From: Bacillota bacterium
GTDB lineage: Bacteria; Bacillota; Clostridia; Lachnospirales; Lachnospiraceae
Assembly (NCBI GenBank): GCA_023663285.1
Contig: JAMPHT010000014.1
Span: forward strand, 1 to 60,387
DNA length: 60,387 nucleotides
Direction: 5' to 3'
The notes under the pieces: generated by a model
Told to the model about the DNA's origin: nothing
Databases searched by the model: none
Seen by the model: the letters and a program-made list of their open reading frames with translations, nothing else
Position numbers and translations under genes: made by a program
In this document: piece by piece, positions 46,953 through 53,630 of the stretch
Layout: the number at the start of each line of letters is the position of its first letter
Position numbering within the stretch: the stretch's first letter is position 1

Positions 46953-47886
46953 TTTCAGTCCTGTCCTTTTCCCCGCTGATCCTGTTCAGCCTGTACTCAA
47001 AATCCCTTCTGTCCTTTGCCGCCATATTGTCAAGGATCATTCCCGCAAAAAAAGCCTGTATCCCGGCAAGCGCCATGAATCCGCAGACGATCAGCGTAGG
47101 GAATCTGGGCACCTGGCCCGTGCTGAGATACTCCCCGACGATCGGGATCATCAGTGTCAACGCTATCAGAAACAACAGCAGACAGATCATGCCGAAGAAG
47201 CGGAGCGGTTTATAATTTCTGTACAGCTGCACCATCTTGCGGATGACCTTCAGCCCGTCGCTGTAGGTATTCAGCTTGGAAACGCTGCCCTCCGGCCTGT
47301 CCCGATATTCCACCACCACGTTTTCTATCTGCATATGATAATTGACCGCATGTATGGTCATTTCCGTCTCGATTTCAAAGCCCTTGGAAAACACAGGAAA
47401 GGTCTTTACAAACTCATAGCTGAACGCCCTGTACCCCGTCATGATATCCTTGATATCCGTTCGGAACAGCTTGTTGATGCCAAAGCGCATCAGACTGTTT
47501 CCAAAATTGTGGAAAGGGCGCTTATTTTCGGTAAAATATGTGGATGAAAGCCTGTCGCCCACCACCATATCCGCATTATGCTCCAGCACCAGGTCCACCA
47601 TCCTGCGGGCACAGTCCATGGGATAGGTATCGTCGCCGTCCACCATAAGATAGCACTGCGCCTGGATCTCCCGGAACATCCTGCGTATCACGTTGCCCTT
47701 GCCCTGCTTATATTCATGTCGCACCACTGCCCCTGCCGCCTCCGCAAGCTCCACAGTCCTGTCAGTGGAGTTATTATCGTAGACGTAGACCCTGGCGTCC
47801 GGAAGGGCCTGCCGCACATCGGCCACCACCTTCGCTATGGTCTGTTCTTCATTATAGCAGGGAATCAAAACGGCAATCTTATCCAT
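46933..47886 (-). CDS. DPM-type GT2 with two C-terminal membrane segments
   Basis: The protein has 317 residues. KIAVLIPCYNEEQTIAKVV, VYVYDNNSTDRT, GKGNVIRRMFREI and MVDGDDTYP are clear GT2 motifs of the dolichyl-phosphate-sugar synthase type. Two membrane segments near 225-250 and 260-285 end the protein. It probably makes a polyprenyl-phosphate sugar. It lies between pseC and pseH, so it may act in the same glycan branch. AGGTG precedes the ATG. Confidence 0.88.
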   Translation of the reverse strand: MDKIAVLIPCYNEEQTIAKVVADVRQALPDARVYVYDNNSTDRTVELAEAAGAVVRHEYKQGKGNVIRRMFREIQAQCYLMVDGDDTYPMDCARRMVDLVLEHNADMVVGDRLSSTYFTENKRPFHNFGNSLMRFGINKLFRTDIKDIMTGYRAFSYEFVKTFPVFSKGFEIETEMTIHAVNYHMQIENVVVEYRDRPEGSVSKLNTYSDGLKVIRKMVQLYRNYKPLRFFGMICLLLFLIALTLMIPIVGEYLSTGQVPRFPTLIVCGFMALAGIQAFFAGMILDNMAAKDRRDFEYRLNRISGEKDRTENEGIQG

Positions 47887-47943
47887 TCTGCTGCACCTCG
47901 TTTTACCATAATTTACAACATTGCTGTATCTGTGATTTCTAAA

Positions 47944-49137
47944 TCACAGTCTATAATACTCCACGATTTTTTTCACCGCATGGATCACATCCTCCACATC
48001 CCCGTCGGTCAGAGAAGGGTAGAGGGGAATGCTCATCACTTCCTCATAATACTTCTCCGCGTTGGGACACAGCCCCTTTTGATAGCCCAGCTTCTCATAA
48101 TAGGAATGCCAATATACCGGAAGGTAATGGACCTGAGGACAGGTATTCTCCGCATAAAGGGCGTCAAAAAACTGCTTTCTGTCACAGCGCAGCTTCTCCG
48201 GCCGCAGCCGCAGGATATAGAGATGCCTGGTAGTATCCGATTCCGGGATCTCCCGCTGCACCACTATCTCCGGTATCGCTTCAAAGGCCCTGTCGTATTT
48301 TTCCACGATCTCCTTCCTGCGTGCAGAAAAGGCAGACAGCTTCTTAAGCTGGTTCCGCAGAAGCGCCGCCTGAAAATCCGTCATACGATAATTATATCCC
48401 AGCTCCACCTGTTCATTATACCACAATGCATCCGTAGGATGCACCATCTCCTCCTGTATCCGGGTGATGCCGTGGGTGCGCACCCGCATCAGCCGACGGT
48501 ACAGCCCCTCGTCGTTTGTGGTAATTGCGCCGCCCTCGCCGGCGGTGACCGTTTTGACAGGATGAAAGCTGAAGCAGGTCATATCCGCAATGCTGCCGAT
48601 GGGCTGCCCCTTATACTTGGTTCCAATGGCATGGGCCGCATCCTCTATCAGGATCAGCTCATGCTTCTCACAGATCGCCCGGAGGGCGTCATGCTCCACA
48701 GACTGCCCCGTAAAATCTACCGCCACGATTCCCTTTGTCCGGGAGGTTATCAGCTTCTCCACCGCCGCCGGGTCTATATTGTAGGTATCCGGCCTGATAT
48801 CCGCAAATACCGGCGTTGCGCCACAATACAGCACACAGTTTGCAGAAGCCGCAAAGGTGATGGAGCTGACGATCACCTCGTCTCCTTCGCCAAATCCGGC
48901 CGCCAGGGCCGCCAGATGGAGGGCTGCCGTTCCGTTTGCCACCACCACCGCGTATTTCGCACCGGTGACCTGGCAAAGCTCCCTCTCCAGCGCCTGAACC
49001 TGGGGACCGCAGGTGATCAGATCGCTTCCAAGCACCGCCGCCACCGCATCTATATCATCCTGCTCAATGCACTGTCTCCCATAATAGATCGGCTTCTCCC
49101 GCACCGGCATTCCGCCGAATATTGCCAGTTCCTCCAT
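47944..49137 (-). CDS. pseC: PseC: 4-keto-sugar aminotransferase of Pse pathway
   Basis: PseC puts an amino group on C4 of UDP-2-acetamido-2,6-dideoxy-L-arabino-hexos-4-ulose. The protein has 397 residues and is a PLP enzyme of the DegT family. Fit to PseC: IVSSITFAASANCVLYCGATPVF, VAVDFTGQ, the PLP lysine in SFHPVKTVTAGEGGA, GYNYRMTDFQAALL and VHYLPVYWHSYYEKLG. The start at 49137 uses AGGTTG. The first 53 codons and the promoter are duplicated beyond the nearby insertion sequence. It heads the operon pseC-GT2-pseH-GT2-GT-C. Confidence 0.92.
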   Translation of the reverse strand: MEELAIFGGMPVREKPIYYGRQCIEQDDIDAVAAVLGSDLITCGPQVQALERELCQVTGAKYAVVVANGTAALHLAALAAGFGEGDEVIVSSITFAASANCVLYCGATPVFADIRPDTYNIDPAAVEKLITSRTKGIVAVDFTGQSVEHDALRAICEKHELILIEDAAHAIGTKYKGQPIGSIADMTCFSFHPVKTVTAGEGGAITTNDEGLYRRLMRVRTHGITRIQEEMVHPTDALWYNEQVELGYNYRMTDFQAALLRNQLKKLSAFSARRKEIVEKYDRAFEAIPEIVVQREIPESDTTRHLYILRLRPEKLRCDRKQFFDALYAENTCPQVHYLPVYWHSYYEKLGYQKGLCPNAEKYYEEVMSIPLYPSLTDGDVEDVIHAVKKIVEYYRL

Positions 49138-49199
49138 ATGAATCAACCTGCCTTTCCCAAGCCCCACAAGCTTTGCGGCTTTTCTATCGCTATGATTGC

Positions 49200-49228
49200 A
49201 TTATACACATCTTATTTCCAAAAGTCTA
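49200..49228 (-). promoter_or_regulatory. pseC operon promoter
   Basis: TAGACT (49223-49228), 17 bases, and TGTG-TATAAT (49200-49205) on the minus strand. The same promoter is duplicated at 51639-51667. Confidence 0.7.
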
Positions 49229-49296
49229 CCGCTTCTTTTGCGAGCAGTCCGCTGTTCATATCGGCGATAGTTTAGCCATGATATACCACAATCCTA

Positions 49297-49324
49297 TTGA
49301 CTTGTCTTTTCAAGATGATATAAT
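49297..49324 (+). promoter_or_regulatory. Duplicated plus-strand promoter, left copy
   Basis: TTGACT and TATAAT 16 bases apart, ending exactly at the IS boundary. Its original downstream gene is now beyond the IS; this copy points into the element, antisense to the transposase. Confidence 0.6.
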
Positions 49325-49352
49325 CCCGTTTTCAACACTTAAAATAATTAAT

Positions 49353-49392
49353 AAAGCCGGAACTCCCCACAGAATAAGGAAATTCCGGCTTT
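49353..49392 (-). terminator. Hairpin after the transposase gene
   Basis: AAAGCCGGAA pairs with TTCCGGCTTT. On the minus strand it is followed by ATTAATTATTTT, so it can end the transposase transcript before pseC. Confidence 0.65.
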
Positions 49393-49422
49393 TGCCATAC
49401 TTAAAAATGTTGTATATTTCGA

Positions 49423-51282
49423 CTACTTCAAAATTTTTTTAATGATGCTGTTTAAATCCTTTGGCCGATAGTGACATCTGTCTAGGGGGAGCATAGTCAG
49501 CTGTGTCAAGGCGCCGAGGGCTTTGCTTCCTTTGTAAAGAGCCATATAATCCATATCATGCACATTCGCGACATTCATGTTCTTCAAGGTTGTTATCAGG
49601 GCACCTGGCGTGATATGTGTTCCCTGGGTATCAAGCTTCGTTTCCAGAAGCCGATACACCAGCAGTGCGGTATAGCAGATCAGGAAATGCGCCTTGATCC
49701 GCTCCGGCAGCCTGTGGTTTACAGGACGTCCGTCAAAATTTGTCTTCATGATCCGAAAGCAGTCCTCGATCTGATACCTTTTTCGTGATACCGCAAGGAC
49801 ATCTTTGGCTGGATCCGCAAGATTTGTGGCAACAGCATAGTATCCATCATATTTTTCTTCCTCTGCGATTGTATTTTCATCAAGAATGTATTCCACAACA
49901 GGTTTTTCACCGGATTTTGTTTTTGTAATCCGCTTCATGAAGCGCTTTATATCGTTCGGGCCTTTTTTGATCTCATCCGGATCTTTTCGGGAAAGCAGTT
50001 TTTTTGCCCGTTCGATCTGCCGGTTTCTGACAGTCCGCTGGTATTCCATCATTTTTCTGGAAAACGTGATGATGACACGTTGTTTCAGGACTCCTTTCGC
50101 TTTCCTTTGTACAGTGCGCCCGTTTTTCAGGGTCACATCCTCGTAAAGCCCCAGGTCAAGCGCTTTGTCAGCCTGGATGACCTTGTAGGCGAAGTCCTGG
50201 TAAAGTCCAAGGTTATCCGGGTTATGCCGGTCAAACTCTTTCATGTCTTTGATCGTAACGGGGGTGTCGTCGGAAAGAAGCTTATAATCATAGTCATTAA
50301 AGACGGCTTCTTTCAATGTATCGCTTAGTTTTTTGATGGATTGTGTGACAATGAAAGCCCTGCCGCCCATGCTGTTGAACTTTCTGATGTTATAGGAACC
50401 AAGTCCTGCATCAGCACAGTAGATAAATTTTGCATCCGGGATCATTTTTAACACTTCTTCCTCCAGAGGGATAGCTGTCAGCTGCTCACTTTTATTTCCG
50501 GGATGCAGGCACATGGTGATGGGGATCCCCCTGCTGTCCATGAACAGTCCCATCTCCACGATGGGATTGGGGCGGTGTTCTTTGCTGGTACCGTACTGGC
50601 GCAGCCCGGTCATGACTTCTCCCGTGACATCGTCCACGATCTCGTCGTCCGCTTGTTCACATTCAAAGTAGAAGTTCGTGCAGTCATAATAAAGCACGGA
50701 GGGGTCCCTCTTAACGATAGTGTCACTCTGCTGGTAGAGCCATGCCAGATAATCATCGTAATGTTCTTCCAAAAGATCCATAAAACGAAGGATATGCTGA
50801 TAGTCAAAGTCCGGTTTTTCGTAATAGGAATCCAGCTTGTAAAGCATTGTGTATTTGGAAAGCGGCTCCATGATCCTGGAATAAATAAGGAAACGGTGGA
50901 TGGTGTAACTGTCGAAGGTCATTTTTCTGCCGGCCGTCTTTTCCTTAAAAAAATCTTTGAGCCGGAGGCCGCTCATCAGGTTCTGCAGGAAAAAGTACCC
51001 TATGTTGAGGCTGGTGGAAGAGGAAGCAGAGTCATCCGTCCTTTCTACCCTCTCATTGTAATCAGTAGAAATGGAATGCTCCACTCTGCCGACACGGTAT
51101 TCCTCATTCATTTTCCGGATTTCTTCCTTGACATAGGCGAGGGGGTCATCTGTGATCTTGAGCAGTTCGGAGTGCTTCCCGAAGCGTTTGACGTTTCTGG
51201 TTGTAACCTTTTTGCCGTTGCGGATTCCCATCTGGGCATAATAGATAGGGTCTTTACTGTTTTTGTTATAAAAGAGTTTCAT
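49423..51282 (-). CDS. IS1634-family (IS4-group) transposase
   Basis: The protein has 619 residues, the usual size for IS1634. The N-terminus (KLFYNKNSKDPIYYAQMG) is followed by a DDE domain: first Asp in VLYYDCTNFYFE, second Asp in FIYCADAGLGSYN, and the C-terminal Y-x-x-E signature in RYQIEDCFRIMKTNF. It appears intact. The start at 51282 is chosen because GGCGGTGA precedes it and it follows a perfect promoter; the 29 upstream in-frame residues overlap that promoter. Confidence 0.93.
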   Translation of the reverse strand: MKLFYNKNSKDPIYYAQMGIRNGKKVTTRNVKRFGKHSELLKITDDPLAYVKEEIRKMNEEYRVGRVEHSISTDYNERVERTDDSASSSTSLNIGYFFLQNLMSGLRLKDFFKEKTAGRKMTFDSYTIHRFLIYSRIMEPLSKYTMLYKLDSYYEKPDFDYQHILRFMDLLEEHYDDYLAWLYQQSDTIVKRDPSVLYYDCTNFYFECEQADDEIVDDVTGEVMTGLRQYGTSKEHRPNPIVEMGLFMDSRGIPITMCLHPGNKSEQLTAIPLEEEVLKMIPDAKFIYCADAGLGSYNIRKFNSMGGRAFIVTQSIKKLSDTLKEAVFNDYDYKLLSDDTPVTIKDMKEFDRHNPDNLGLYQDFAYKVIQADKALDLGLYEDVTLKNGRTVQRKAKGVLKQRVIITFSRKMMEYQRTVRNRQIERAKKLLSRKDPDEIKKGPNDIKRFMKRITKTKSGEKPVVEYILDENTIAEEEKYDGYYAVATNLADPAKDVLAVSRKRYQIEDCFRIMKTNFDGRPVNHRLPERIKAHFLICYTALLVYRLLETKLDTQGTHITPGALITTLKNMNVANVHDMDYMALYKGSKALGALTQLTMLPLDRCHYRPKDLNSIIKKILK

Positions 51283-51313
51283 TTGTTCACCGCCGTAAAT
51301 GATATATATTACT

Positions 51314-51342
51314 ATTATACAACATATACAACACAGTGTCAA
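51314..51342 (-). promoter_or_regulatory. Consensus transposase promoter
   Basis: TTGACA (51337-51342), 17 bases, TATAAT (51314-51319): a perfect consensus on the minus strand inside the element. Confidence 0.85.
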
Positions 51343-51353
51343 GAAAAATTTGA

Positions 51354-51377
51354 CAAAAAAATGCCGCATTTCTGCGG
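51354..51377 (-). terminator. Entry terminator at the IS end
   Basis: On the minus strand CCGCA-GAAA-TGCGG is followed by CATTTTTTT. It lies upstream of the transposase promoter and would stop transcription entering from the duplicated pseC promoter. Confidence 0.75.
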
Positions 51378-51393
51378 TTCCTAAGGATTTTAT

Positions 51394-51576
51394 TCAGTTA
51401 TAAGTGTTGAAGACCCGCTCCCTCTCCAGCGCCTGAACCTGGGGACCGCAGGTGATCAGATCGCTTCCAAGCACCGCCGCCACCGCATCTATATCATCCT
51501 GCTCAATGCACTGTCTCCCATAATAGATCGGCTTCTCCCGCACCGGCATTCCGCCGAATATTGCCAGTTCCTCCAT
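51394..51576 (-). pseudogene. Truncated pseC copy (first 53 codons)
   Basis: The first 53 residues match PseC exactly (MEELAIFGG to QALERE), then the frame enters the IS end and stops after RVFNTYN. It has the pseC promoter and ribosome site but no catalytic part. It is a by-product of the target duplication. Confidence 0.92.
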
Positions 51577-51736
51577 ATGAATCAACCTGCCTTTCCCAAG
51601 CCCCACAAGCTTTGCGGCTTTTCTATCGCTATGATTGCATTATACACATCTTATTTCCAAAAGTCTACCGCTTCTTTTGTGGCTTAGCCATGATATACCA
51701 CAATCCTATTGACTTGTCTTTTCAAGATGATATAAT
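51417..51736. repeat. Right direct repeat flanking the IS (320 bp)
   Basis: Second copy of 48978-49324, starting exactly at the IS right end and ending at the TATAAT of the plus-strand promoter. It differs by TGGC in place of a 31-base block. Confidence 0.92.
51709..51736 (+). promoter_or_regulatory. Promoter of the small secreted protein gene
   Basis: TTGACT (51709-51714), 16 bases, TATAAT (51731-51736), 35 bases before the ATG with AAAGGAGG between. Confidence 0.75.
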
Positions 51737-51770
51737 ATAATAAAACAAAATACAAAGGAGGTTCATTACA

Positions 51771-52028
51771 ATGAACAAAAAGAGAATCACACTTGCTGCC
51801 CTTGGCTGCGTAGTATGCATGGGCCTTGGGGTCCTGGCTGCTCCCGCCGCCACGCTTCCCGTTCAGGCGGCCGCTGCCCAGGAAGAGACTGTCATGCCCA
51901 TGTCGGACGCCATTTCATGGAGATATGCCGTCATAAACAAAAAGCTGTACAAGCGCCTTTACAATTATTCCACCATGGAATGGGTAGGCTCTTGGGTATT
52001 TGTCAGAGATTGGCCCTATGAGGATTAA
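51771..52028 (+). CDS. Small secreted protein, unknown function
   Basis: This 85-residue protein has a Sec signal peptide (positive start NKKR, hydrophobic core, likely cut after PVQAAA near residue 35). The mature part is about 48 residues and aromatic-rich: ISWRYAVINKKLYKRLYNYS and WVGSWVFVRDWPYED. Small exported proteins of this type occur in Clostridia, with Trp/Tyr/Arg patterns like this one. No enzyme motif is visible. AAAGGAGG precedes the ATG. Its promoter lies at the edge of the IS target repeat. A glycan- or wall-binding role is only a guess. Confidence 0.8.
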   Translation: MNKKRITLAALGCVVCMGLGVLAAPAATLPVQAAAAQEETVMPMSDAISWRYAVINKKLYKRLYNYSTMEWVGSWVFVRDWPYED

Positions 52029-52496
52029 AGTTTCACCGCCATAGCATCGGAAGAACCCTCAAATCGACGCAGAGAAACTTCCTAAATAAAATCAATAACC
52101 CGATGATGCAAAGCAAAATGCATCTGCGATGCATATGTATCAAGCCTGCAACGCTGCAGAGCACAATGTGCTCGCGGGAATCAAGATAAAGGAGCGGACA
52201 ATGTCCGCTTGCGAGACTTGCTTCGCAAACTCGTTATTTCATACGGAAATCCCACAAAGATTTCTTATTTAACAATAGAATTCACGCTTCGCGAAGATTT
52301 TATTGTTATATTTAAAAAAGCGGCCCCGCCGAGGAGCCGCTTTATGCTTTCATCTGTTTGTTTTCTTCATTCTCATTTATTCCCACGAGCAAAATGTGCC
52401 TTTCAGACACATAAACCAAGTCAGCTATGTTGACTTTGTGCCAATGTTTAAAGCCAGCTATAAGTTGGATTGGACATTTGGTAAATGTCGCGATAG
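52029..52496. other. 468-bp intergenic region with hairpins
   Basis: No credible gene is seen between the secreted protein gene and the M56 gene. Several short perfect hairpins occur (GCATCTGCGATGC, GCGGACAATGTCCGC, CTTCGCGAAG) and one clear terminator. A sequence TCCCACGAGCAAAATGTG (52381-52398) recurs at 55012-55029. A 64-codon minus-strand frame at 52342-52536 has no supporting features. Confidence 0.6.
52314..52343 (-). terminator. Intrinsic terminator of the M56 transcript
   Basis: AAAGCGGC pairs with GCCGCTTT and is followed by TTT then AAATAT on the minus strand. Confidence 0.65.
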
Positions 52497-53630
52497 TCAT
52501 TCCAACTCTTCTCTGACAGATATTCCAATATAGCACTCCAACGTATCCACATTCTCTGCGAAATGGCCGTTCAAATAAACATCATAGGTGCCATCCTCTC
52601 TGAGAACGGCATACATACAGTCGTCCGCAACTGAGTTGCTTACTGCCACATCCCAAGGACGGAACGCATATGCCTCCAGTGTAAAGCAATAAGAAGCTAT
52701 GTAGATTCCAACCGCAAATGCCGCCAGCCCATAGAACAGCGGGCCTCTCTTTTCCTTATTCCGGCGCATCATACTCTGTCTGCGCTCCAGATCCTCGCTC
52801 TTGACGTCCGCCACAGGAATAGCCGCATCAATGCCCGGCATGGCGGACTTTCCACGGATCTCCTCATTGACGCGGTCCAGGGTCCGGCAGTAGGCTTCCC
52901 TCGCCACCGCATCTCCTGCGATCAGCTTCTCATCCACCCGCATTTCCAGCAAAAGGTCTGTTTTCTTCTCCATCTGCCCGGCCAACGGATTCCACCAGTA
53001 AATAGCGCGCAGGATCCCTATGGCATCCTTGAGCAGCGCATCATGGCGGTAATAGTGAGCCGTCTCATGGCGCAGGATATAATAAATCTCCTCCTCCGAG
53101 AAATTCATGGTGCTGGGAAGGACTATGTAAGGCCGGATGGTCCCGTACTGCATAGGCGCACCGTAATAAGGCACCTTTACCACCCAGAGAGGGTTCCTGC
53201 GGCTGCCGCAGATCTCCGCCATCATCCTTTTGTAGGGTTCCCGCTTGGTCAGATTCTCTCCGTATCGGATGATATAATGCCGACATGACGCCTTATCCTT
53301 GAAATGCTTGTATATAAAATACACCGTCCCGCCAATCCAGACGCATCCGAGTATGGTACAAGCAGAAATGCGTATCATCCCAAAACGCAGGAAAGGATGC
53401 CGAAAATACGCAACACCCTTCGACAGCCAGCCGGGAAAATAAATATTTCTCGAAAAAGGCACCTCAAAAGGAAACAGGAACCGCAGCACTGTCAGAGCCA
53501 GAAATACCGCTATCAGTTTGTATCCCACCGAAAGCAAGATCTTCCGGCTCCGGAAACAAAGCACTATCATCACGATCAGAAGATTGCTCGCCAATACGGT
53601 CATCAGCATAGTAGAAAATGAATAATTCAC
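52497..53630 (-). CDS. BlaR1/MecR1-like M56 membrane metallopeptidase
   Basis: The protein has 377 residues. Three or four membrane segments come first, then the zinc-binding motif RHETAHYYRHDALLKD (HExxH) and a conserved IYWWNPLAG, a further membrane segment and a tail of about 55 residues. It lacks the penicillin-binding sensor domain of BlaR1, so it must sense something else or act through its short tail. M56 proteases in this setting cut BlaI-type repressors. Start codon is GTG, preceded by AGAGGAAGAG. It lies directly after a BlaI gene. No beta-lactamase is nearby. Confidence 0.88.
   Translation of the reverse strand: MNYSFSTMLMTVLASNLLIVMIVLCFRSRKILLSVGYKLIAVFLALTVLRFLFPFEVPFSRNIYFPGWLSKGVAYFRHPFLRFGMIRISACTILGCVWIGGTVYFIYKHFKDKASCRHYIIRYGENLTKREPYKRMMAEICGSRRNPLWVVKVPYYGAPMQYGTIRPYIVLPSTMNFSEEEIYYILRHETAHYYRHDALLKDAIGILRAIYWWNPLAGQMEKKTDLLLEMRVDEKLIAGDAVAREAYCRTLDRVNEEIRGKSAMPGIDAAIPVADVKSEDLERRQSMMRRNKEKRGPLFYGLAAFAVGIYIASYCFTLEAYAFRPWDVAVSNSVADDCMYAVLREDGTYDVYLNGHFAENVDTLECYIGISVREELE

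Follow-up and report, generated by a model that had tools for sequence, protein, structure and literature searches.

Probable promoter targeting and long target duplications in a clade of IS1634-family insertion sequences

An IS1634-family clade of insertion sequences (ISs) very probably combines long target duplication with the targeting of host sigma-A promoters. Here, we report this for an IS at positions 49325 to 51416 of a 60,387-nt stretch of DNA from a Bacillota bacterium of the Lachnospiraceae (GenBank assembly GCA_023663285.1, contig JAMPHT010000014.1, positions 1 to 60,387, forward strand; hereafter the window) and for its relatives. Judged from sequence, the IS 3' end of most copies in the clade is joined 0 to 3 nt from the downstream edge of a promoter-like -10 box, and the joined promoter reads into that end, antisense to the transposase gene. 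The opposite edge of the duplication lies at a variable distance upstream (14 to 347 bp in clade D, the subgroup that holds the window element), and because that edge floats, a complete promoter copy remains with its gene. The cut-off copy faces a two-way terminator-like hairpin within the IS. The features that carry this reading in the window are as follows.

49325 to 51416, minus strand: IS1634-family IS, 2092 nt by its repeat edges and possibly 1 nt more, with its 3' end at 49325.
48978 to 49324, no strand: left target copy, 347 nt, whose right edge is the -10 box TATAAT.
51417 to 51736, no strand: right target copy, 320 nt, shorter by 27 nt through one internal 31-to-4-nt difference.
49297 to 49324, plus strand: target promoter candidate TTGACT-16-TATAAT (11/12 consensus match, TG before the -10), cut at the -10 edge and pointing into the IS 3' end.
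51709 to 51736, plus strand: second copy of the target promoter candidate, in front of a small gene.
49353 to 49392, no strand: two-way terminator-like hairpin, in the segment from the transposase stop to the IS 3' end.

The two target copies share a 263-nt block (48978 to 49240 and 51417 to 51679, 100% identical, offset 2439) and a 53-nt block (49272 to 49324 and 51684 to 51736, 100% identical, offset 2412), and they differ solely where the left copy has 31 nt (49241 to 49271) and the right copy has 4 nt (51680 to 51683). The left copy's end and the right copy's start are the IS ends. The remaining direct repeats listed in the 5-kb region are all 24 nt or shorter, so the 347/320-nt repeat is not due to chance. 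These blocks bear out the original prediction, made from the window, of an IS1634-type element bracketed by 347/320-bp direct repeats with a fixed offset of 2439 in the pseC-proximal part; its claim that the copies begin or end exactly at the IS ends holds to within a boundary uncertainty of about 1 to 3 nt. That prediction overlooked the fixed -10 edge with its floating counterpart, and the two-way hairpin at the promoter-facing end.

The gene order is identical in two genomes of the same genus, G005 and G071, which have no IS and a single copy of the target stretch. The window flanks, joined in silico with one target copy kept, gave a single aligned block with G005 (80% identity, 1577 nt) and, with G071, two collinear blocks separated by a longer stretch. 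The IS sequence had no match in the fetched stretch of either genome, and both are absent from the sets of genomes with an IS match (29/138 by DNA, 26 by protein). In front of their copy of the small gene, both relatives have the window's promoter hexamers and 16-nt spacing, with a changed spacer sequence. Because these two IS-free relatives hold one copy, the insertion itself created the repeat, as predicted, and a pre-existing tandem duplication is ruled out. The prediction had staked itself on two points, and on both it held: IS-free relatives carry one copy rather than both, and other copies of the IS carry long rather than only short duplications. It is hardly credible that the repeat is older than the IS or is a product of recombination between two IS copies; the 27-nt net change between the target copies and the known recombination of IS copies would suit that account, but the empty sites refute it in the case of the window, and dozens of copies at different sites have different repeat lengths, with the repeats abutting the IS. 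Since the G005 stretch is near the left copy in length, the 27-nt net loss probably occurred in the right copy after insertion.

Relatives were drawn from a scan of named genomes (29 loci) and from 398 genomes of the phylum searched with the family model (found in 120), from which 80 regions were fetched by choice, chiefly from complete genomes with several copies. Schaedlerella arabinosiphila (one 6.3-Mb contig) holds two related elements in 6 and 5 full copies, with repeats of 58 to 304 bp at 11/11 of them. Mycoplasmopsis gallopavonis (NZ_LR215032.1, L315-L327) also holds two related IS1634-family elements, with repeats of 30 to 341 bp at 9/13 copies; at one of its loci (L321) the 5' edge of the IS carries a perfect hairpin. 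Long repeats also flank relatives at about 30 to 40% identity in other genomes of the Lachnospiraceae, the window's family, on a Carnobacterium plasmid, and in a Streptococcus phage; a Ligilactobacillus copy has a 14-bp repeat. Repeats of at least 30 bp are common in the fetched phylum regions and reach 524 bp. All lengths pooled ranged from 14 to 524 bp (n=78, median 129), and those measured in clade D from 14 to 347 bp (n=37, median 147). The repeat lists omit duplicate loci (L184 and L185) and also L096, L106, L110, L111, and L066; the length set omits L277, L286, L237, L265, L269, L194, L240, L241, and L296, and the window, L198, and nine Mycoplasmopsis lengths were added to it by hand.

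A tree built from 109 transposases by a quick method, rooted at the midpoint and with some long branches flagged by the program, placed the long-repeat elements in one group of 85 rows (support 91), or of 84 rows without an Actinomyces plasmid (support 96), and the window fell within a subgroup of 58 rows (support 100), which is clade D. Outside the long-repeat clade, the four elements with comparable copies (G829, G767, G793, and G686) have repeats of 5 to 6 bp, read by eye; a 14-nt repeat at L296 looks like IS end sequence, and L240/L241 lie in tandem-repeat DNA and are unscorable. The loci outside that clade with classical repeats of 5 to 6 bp by eye are L266-L268, L257-L259, L292-L294, and L305-L307. 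Among the relatives examined, long repeats are common in one clade of the IS1634 family, and the suggestion that the window element is a third case after IS1634 and IS1549 was too narrow: they occur in many relatives, which fall in one transposase clade where placed in the tree.

For the junctions, copies were oriented transposase-forward. In this orientation the first target bases past the IS 3' end often read ATTATA or nearly so, and on the opposite strand this is the -10 box TATAAT. ATTATA as a part of the IS end was tried and ruled out, since the other target copy also has it at its far edge and the empty sites contain TATAAT. The window junction has TATAAT (6/6) at offset 0 and TTGACT at 16 bp. 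A hexamer matching TATAAT in at least 5/6 positions, 0 to 3 nt from the IS end, was found at 44/62 clade-D 3' junctions (binomial p 2e-49), compared with 591/16523 random flank positions (3.6%), 4.6% of 6704 control windows 15 to 300 nt upstream of the junction on both strands, and 1/39 junctions at the other (5') IS end. These 62 are the readable junctions out of 76, 12 being unreadable (end not found or contig edge) and L277 and L286 having been removed as spurious repeat calls. Out of 18 previously unused copies held out, two (L364 and L371) were without a 3' end; the test was passed by 10/16 of the others, against 146/3000 control positions (p about 5e-10), with L347, probably misread by one base, counted as a miss. 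An open reading frame (ORF) with a ribosome site started at most 400 nt downstream in 27/39 copies, compared with 462/2180 random places and 12/39 outward from the variable edge.

A wider promoter score (box edge at most 6 nt from the junction, at least 9/12 required; L277, L286, L237, L265, L269, L194, and L198 omitted for unclear repeat edges) was reached at 24/38 clade-D sites, compared with 1/38 clade-D variable edges and 3.5% of 6515 control positions. In clade C it was reached at 4/11 sites (edge 0 to 1 nt past the junction), and in clade A plus G737 at 0/16 sites, though the repeats there are equally long. Promoter targeting thus scored is strong in clade D and is likely in part of clade C, on few copies. 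Because clade A and G737 have long repeats without promoters, promoter targeting and long repeats are separate traits, the long repeats being the wider spread. Random insertion, of which only harmless promoter-adjacent events survive, should over-represent survivors that leave both neighbouring genes intact, but selection would hardly set the junction at the last -10 base, as in the 36/44 boxes that end exactly on the base joined to the IS, with the other edge free; with the 0/16 sites of clade A plus G737 also counted against it, this explanation is very improbable.

A simpler rule would be that the transposase reads only TATAAT or easily melted DNA, promoters being struck because they contain TATAAT. 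No other target bases come near the last six in information content, and many junctions have no good -35, for example 13/16 held-out sites, both as this rule would have it. On the other hand, a -35 (at least 5/6 TTGACA, at 16 to 18 bp) is enriched at the correct spacing: with a perfect -10 at the edge it was found in 9/17 cases, compared with 9/106 non-coding and 5/29 gene-proximal TATAAT (p=0.014 against the latter), and with a 5/6 box in 5/19, compared with 19/987 non-coding and 10/245 gene-proximal boxes (p=0.002 against the latter), all of these counts at the junctions being small. We consider the TATAAT-only rule rather unlikely, though worth weighing.

Clade A (L231-L255: G718, G900, G803, G852, G735, and G873) and L302-L304 have long repeats and junctions without promoters. 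The IS 5' junction in clade A plus G737 is T-rich (at least 5 T in the last 8 nt) in 10/21 cases, compared with 8.3% of 432 control windows. A terminator-like hairpin stands ahead of the T-rich IS 5' junction at L234, L235, and L245. The target of these elements is possibly another transcription signal; we do not claim terminator targeting.

The hairpin at the IS 3' end was defined by an A-run before and a T-run after the stem. In the segment that runs from the transposase stop to the IS 3' end, it was found in 43/46 distinct clade-D regions, compared with 19/460 shuffled sequences. In the other sets it was sought in a fixed 110 nt after the stop rather than up to the exact IS end, and there it was found in 12/15 regions of clade C, 0/18 of clade A, and 0/29 of the set outside the long-repeat clade, in which repeat length was measured for a minority of the 29 rows. 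At 49353 to 49392 the program lists a minus-strand terminator, and the two-way criterion is our own. Stems vary in sequence among elements. The hairpin lies where the spare promoter copy points into the IS, and from its form it should act as a terminator in both directions, which would protect the host against read-through and the transposase gene against antisense RNA.

In DDE chemistry, the 3'-OH of a transposon end is joined to the 5' end of a target strand. The promoter would be recognised by the transposase, acting by itself or together with RNA polymerase or sigma, and the 3'-OH of the IS 3' end would attack the template strand (5' end ATTATA) immediately past the -10. From the 3'-OH left at the nick in the target, strand-displacement synthesis would then run upstream, displacing the strand joined to the IS, until it stops and the other strand is captured by the second IS end; the stretch copied by then would set the repeat length. 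With the hairpin in place, antisense transcription of the transposase gene from the host promoter would be prevented, and with its long repeat the insertion would do almost no harm. Nick-primed synthesis would give one fixed and one free edge, a constant direction, lengths from 14 to more than 500 bp, and no 10.5-bp phasing; taken alone, we offer it tentatively. On the account as a whole, a large clade would sense promoters in the form of open complexes or DNA bound by sigma; one IS end would be joined to the template strand at the -10, and upstream DNA would be copied from the nick before capture of the second end. We regard this as possible but less likely than not. If true, it would place a target-primed replicative step in a DDE insertion sequence, the host gene would keep its promoter in working order, the spare promoter would be silenced by a built-in two-way terminator, and the repeat length would reflect the extent of synthesis.

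Both IS ends may instead join a looped target simultaneously, leaving a very wide stagger that is filled later, with no synthesis before the second joining. This would be the ordinary DDE pathway stretched, with no new step needed, but melting over hundreds of bp would be required, and the lengths of 14 to 524 bp lack 10.5-bp phasing: no such periodicity was found in the 78 repeat lengths, with nothing at 10.3 to 10.7, and helical phasing of repeat length was rejected on that ground. Looped joining is a serious possibility, if one that we would not favor outright. For the nick-primed account, binding of the replication clamp by another IS1634 transposase (IS1634-1 of Acidiphilium), shown in a 2015 paper (PMC4549789), would be a suitable link to synthesis.

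Several observations weigh against promoter targeting with long duplication, or against the mechanism proposed for it. Among the clade-D copies, 55 have 700 nt or more on either side, and of these, 40 were counted as having a repeat and 15, including those of Lactimicrobium and Merdibacter, as having none; in this count 21/76 copies near contig edges were unjudged, L277 and L286 were entered as repeat-less, and L309 was entered as positive, though its 59-nt repeat does not abut the 3' end. We assume that the 15 reflect recombination or decay. At clade-D junctions, 18/62 fell below 5/6 of the -10, no promoter was in sight at L143, L119, L120, and L187, and at L119 (Schaedlerella) TATAAT stands on the IS 5' side rather than the 3' side, which may reflect an insertion in the reverse sense. 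Among the held-out copies, L350 shares its target with L278 (9/15 without L350), and only 3/16 sites have a -35 of at least 5/6. Copies of one element share a transposase, and their independence rests on differing target sites. The window's own draft genome (86% complete) has one further IS match, an internally deleted remnant of about 320 bp with both IS ends (L005:2420-2742, contig C66), resembling a miniature inverted-repeat transposable element (MITE); no direct repeat was found at this remnant, and by eye its end has only about 4/6 of the -10. Within clades C and D, the hairpin is common by descent. The repeat lengths gave p about 0.04, uncorrected, at a period of 10.0. A loose pattern for the reported clamp-binding motif matched only 4/24 transposases, and the clamp is not relied on.

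The remaining features of the IS and of the neighbouring genes in the window are as follows.

49423 to 51369, minus strand: transposase gene, 648 codons counted from the first ATG.
49328 to 49344, plus strand: terminal inverted repeat, 3' end arm, 17 nt, 88% complementary to the other arm.
51398 to 51414, plus strand: terminal inverted repeat, 5' end arm, pairing imperfectly with the 3' end arm.
51314 to 51342, minus strand: transposase promoter candidate TTGACA-17-TATAAT, 12/12 consensus match.
47944 to 49167, minus strand: pseC, open throughout, with the duplication extending 190 nt into the gene.
49200 to 49228, minus strand: pseC promoter candidate TAGACT-17-TATAAT in the left copy, with a second copy at 51639 to 51667.
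51771 to 52028, plus strand: 85-aa ORF behind the target promoter, with its start 34 nt past the -10 and an AGGAGG-type ribosome site.

The transposase matched the NCBIfam IS1634 model NF033559 (E=4.1e-105, 352.6 bits, cut-off 100), which confirms the predicted element type. Its gene reads open as a 648-codon ORF, with M30 as the probable true start. D229, D320, and E535 are invariant across 60 aligned transposases, and we take them, by motif context, to be the DDE catalytic triad. A consensus match of at least 10/12 was reached in the transposase promoter region of 17/47 distinct clade-D elements. The IS ends, CGGGTCTT (with the ambiguous first C counted) and CCCGTTTT, read inward, fit by eye the family pattern C-----YT, as tabulated in a 2008 paper (PMC2266710). 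The boundary is uncertain by about 1 to 3 nt: the C beside GGG at 51416/51417 may be an IS base, because many relatives start with CGGG, and relatives' ends are of the same kind (CGGG..ACA / TGT..CGGG). Two traits given there as usual, not defining (PMC2266710), are departed from in the window, in that the IS (2092 bp) slightly exceeds the usual 1500 to 2000 bp and the repeat (347/320 nt) exceeds the usual 5 to 6 bp. Family membership rests on the transposase, repeat length varying inside the family, type element included. An Rfam search of 47500 to 53000 gave no matches, a viral-contig scan gave none, and a PDB profile search gave a single weak match (E=0.028).

The duplication takes in all of the DNA that separates the divergent gene pair and, beyond it, 190 nt of pseC, and each gene retains one copy of the intergenic stretch with its own promoter candidate; the insertion would thus have been nearly silent for the host. 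A chimeric ORF (51394 to 51606, 70 codons) fuses the duplicated pseC start to IS sequence. Elsewhere, two copies of one transposase gene lie in the same orientation 477 nt apart (L349/L350, G764:C1:3595080-3599036).

Among known systems, compared by description only, IS1634 of Mycoplasma mycoides resembles the window element in its family and in the long direct repeats of variable length that Vilei reportedly described in 1999, and IS1549 of Mycobacterium smegmatis resembles it in the long direct repeats that Plikaytis is said to have described on insertion in 1998. For the family, the 2008 paper gives repeats of 5 to 6 bp, with IS1549 and IS1634 as exceptions (together 8 to 514 bp), and it notes that a mechanistic model for the long repeats was still lacking (PMC2266710). 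IS1634-1 of Acidiphilium (PMC4549789) and ISPfe2 of Paracoccus, caught in the sacB gene of a trap plasmid (PMC3281130), have a transposase of the same family and differ by repeats of 6 bp. The IS4 family, distant relatives with a DDE transposase, differs by repeats of about 10 bp and a YREK motif (PMC2266710). The Neisseria CREE elements, which are MITEs, resemble clade D in a target preference like the -10 hexamer, but their repeats are of 2 to 5 bp (TA, TATA, TATAG), and the review passage on them treats the formation of fusion promoters rather than insertion at the margin of an entire promoter with a long duplication (PMC9330008). No description of promoter targeting by an IS1634-type element was found in the literature searched, most subscription papers being outside its reach, and the passage on the CREE elements came closest; within that scope the promoter targeting is new, and the long repeats of IS1634 and IS1549 were already known.

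Those long repeats have so far been an unexplained oddity. The target rule described here is precise to about one base, and with one fixed and one floating edge the mechanism becomes testable. These elements may be misplaced by annotation that looks for short repeats, and in uncultured bacteria their insertion sites may point to promoters. The rule also suggests how a mobile element may spread in gene-dense genomes with little damage.

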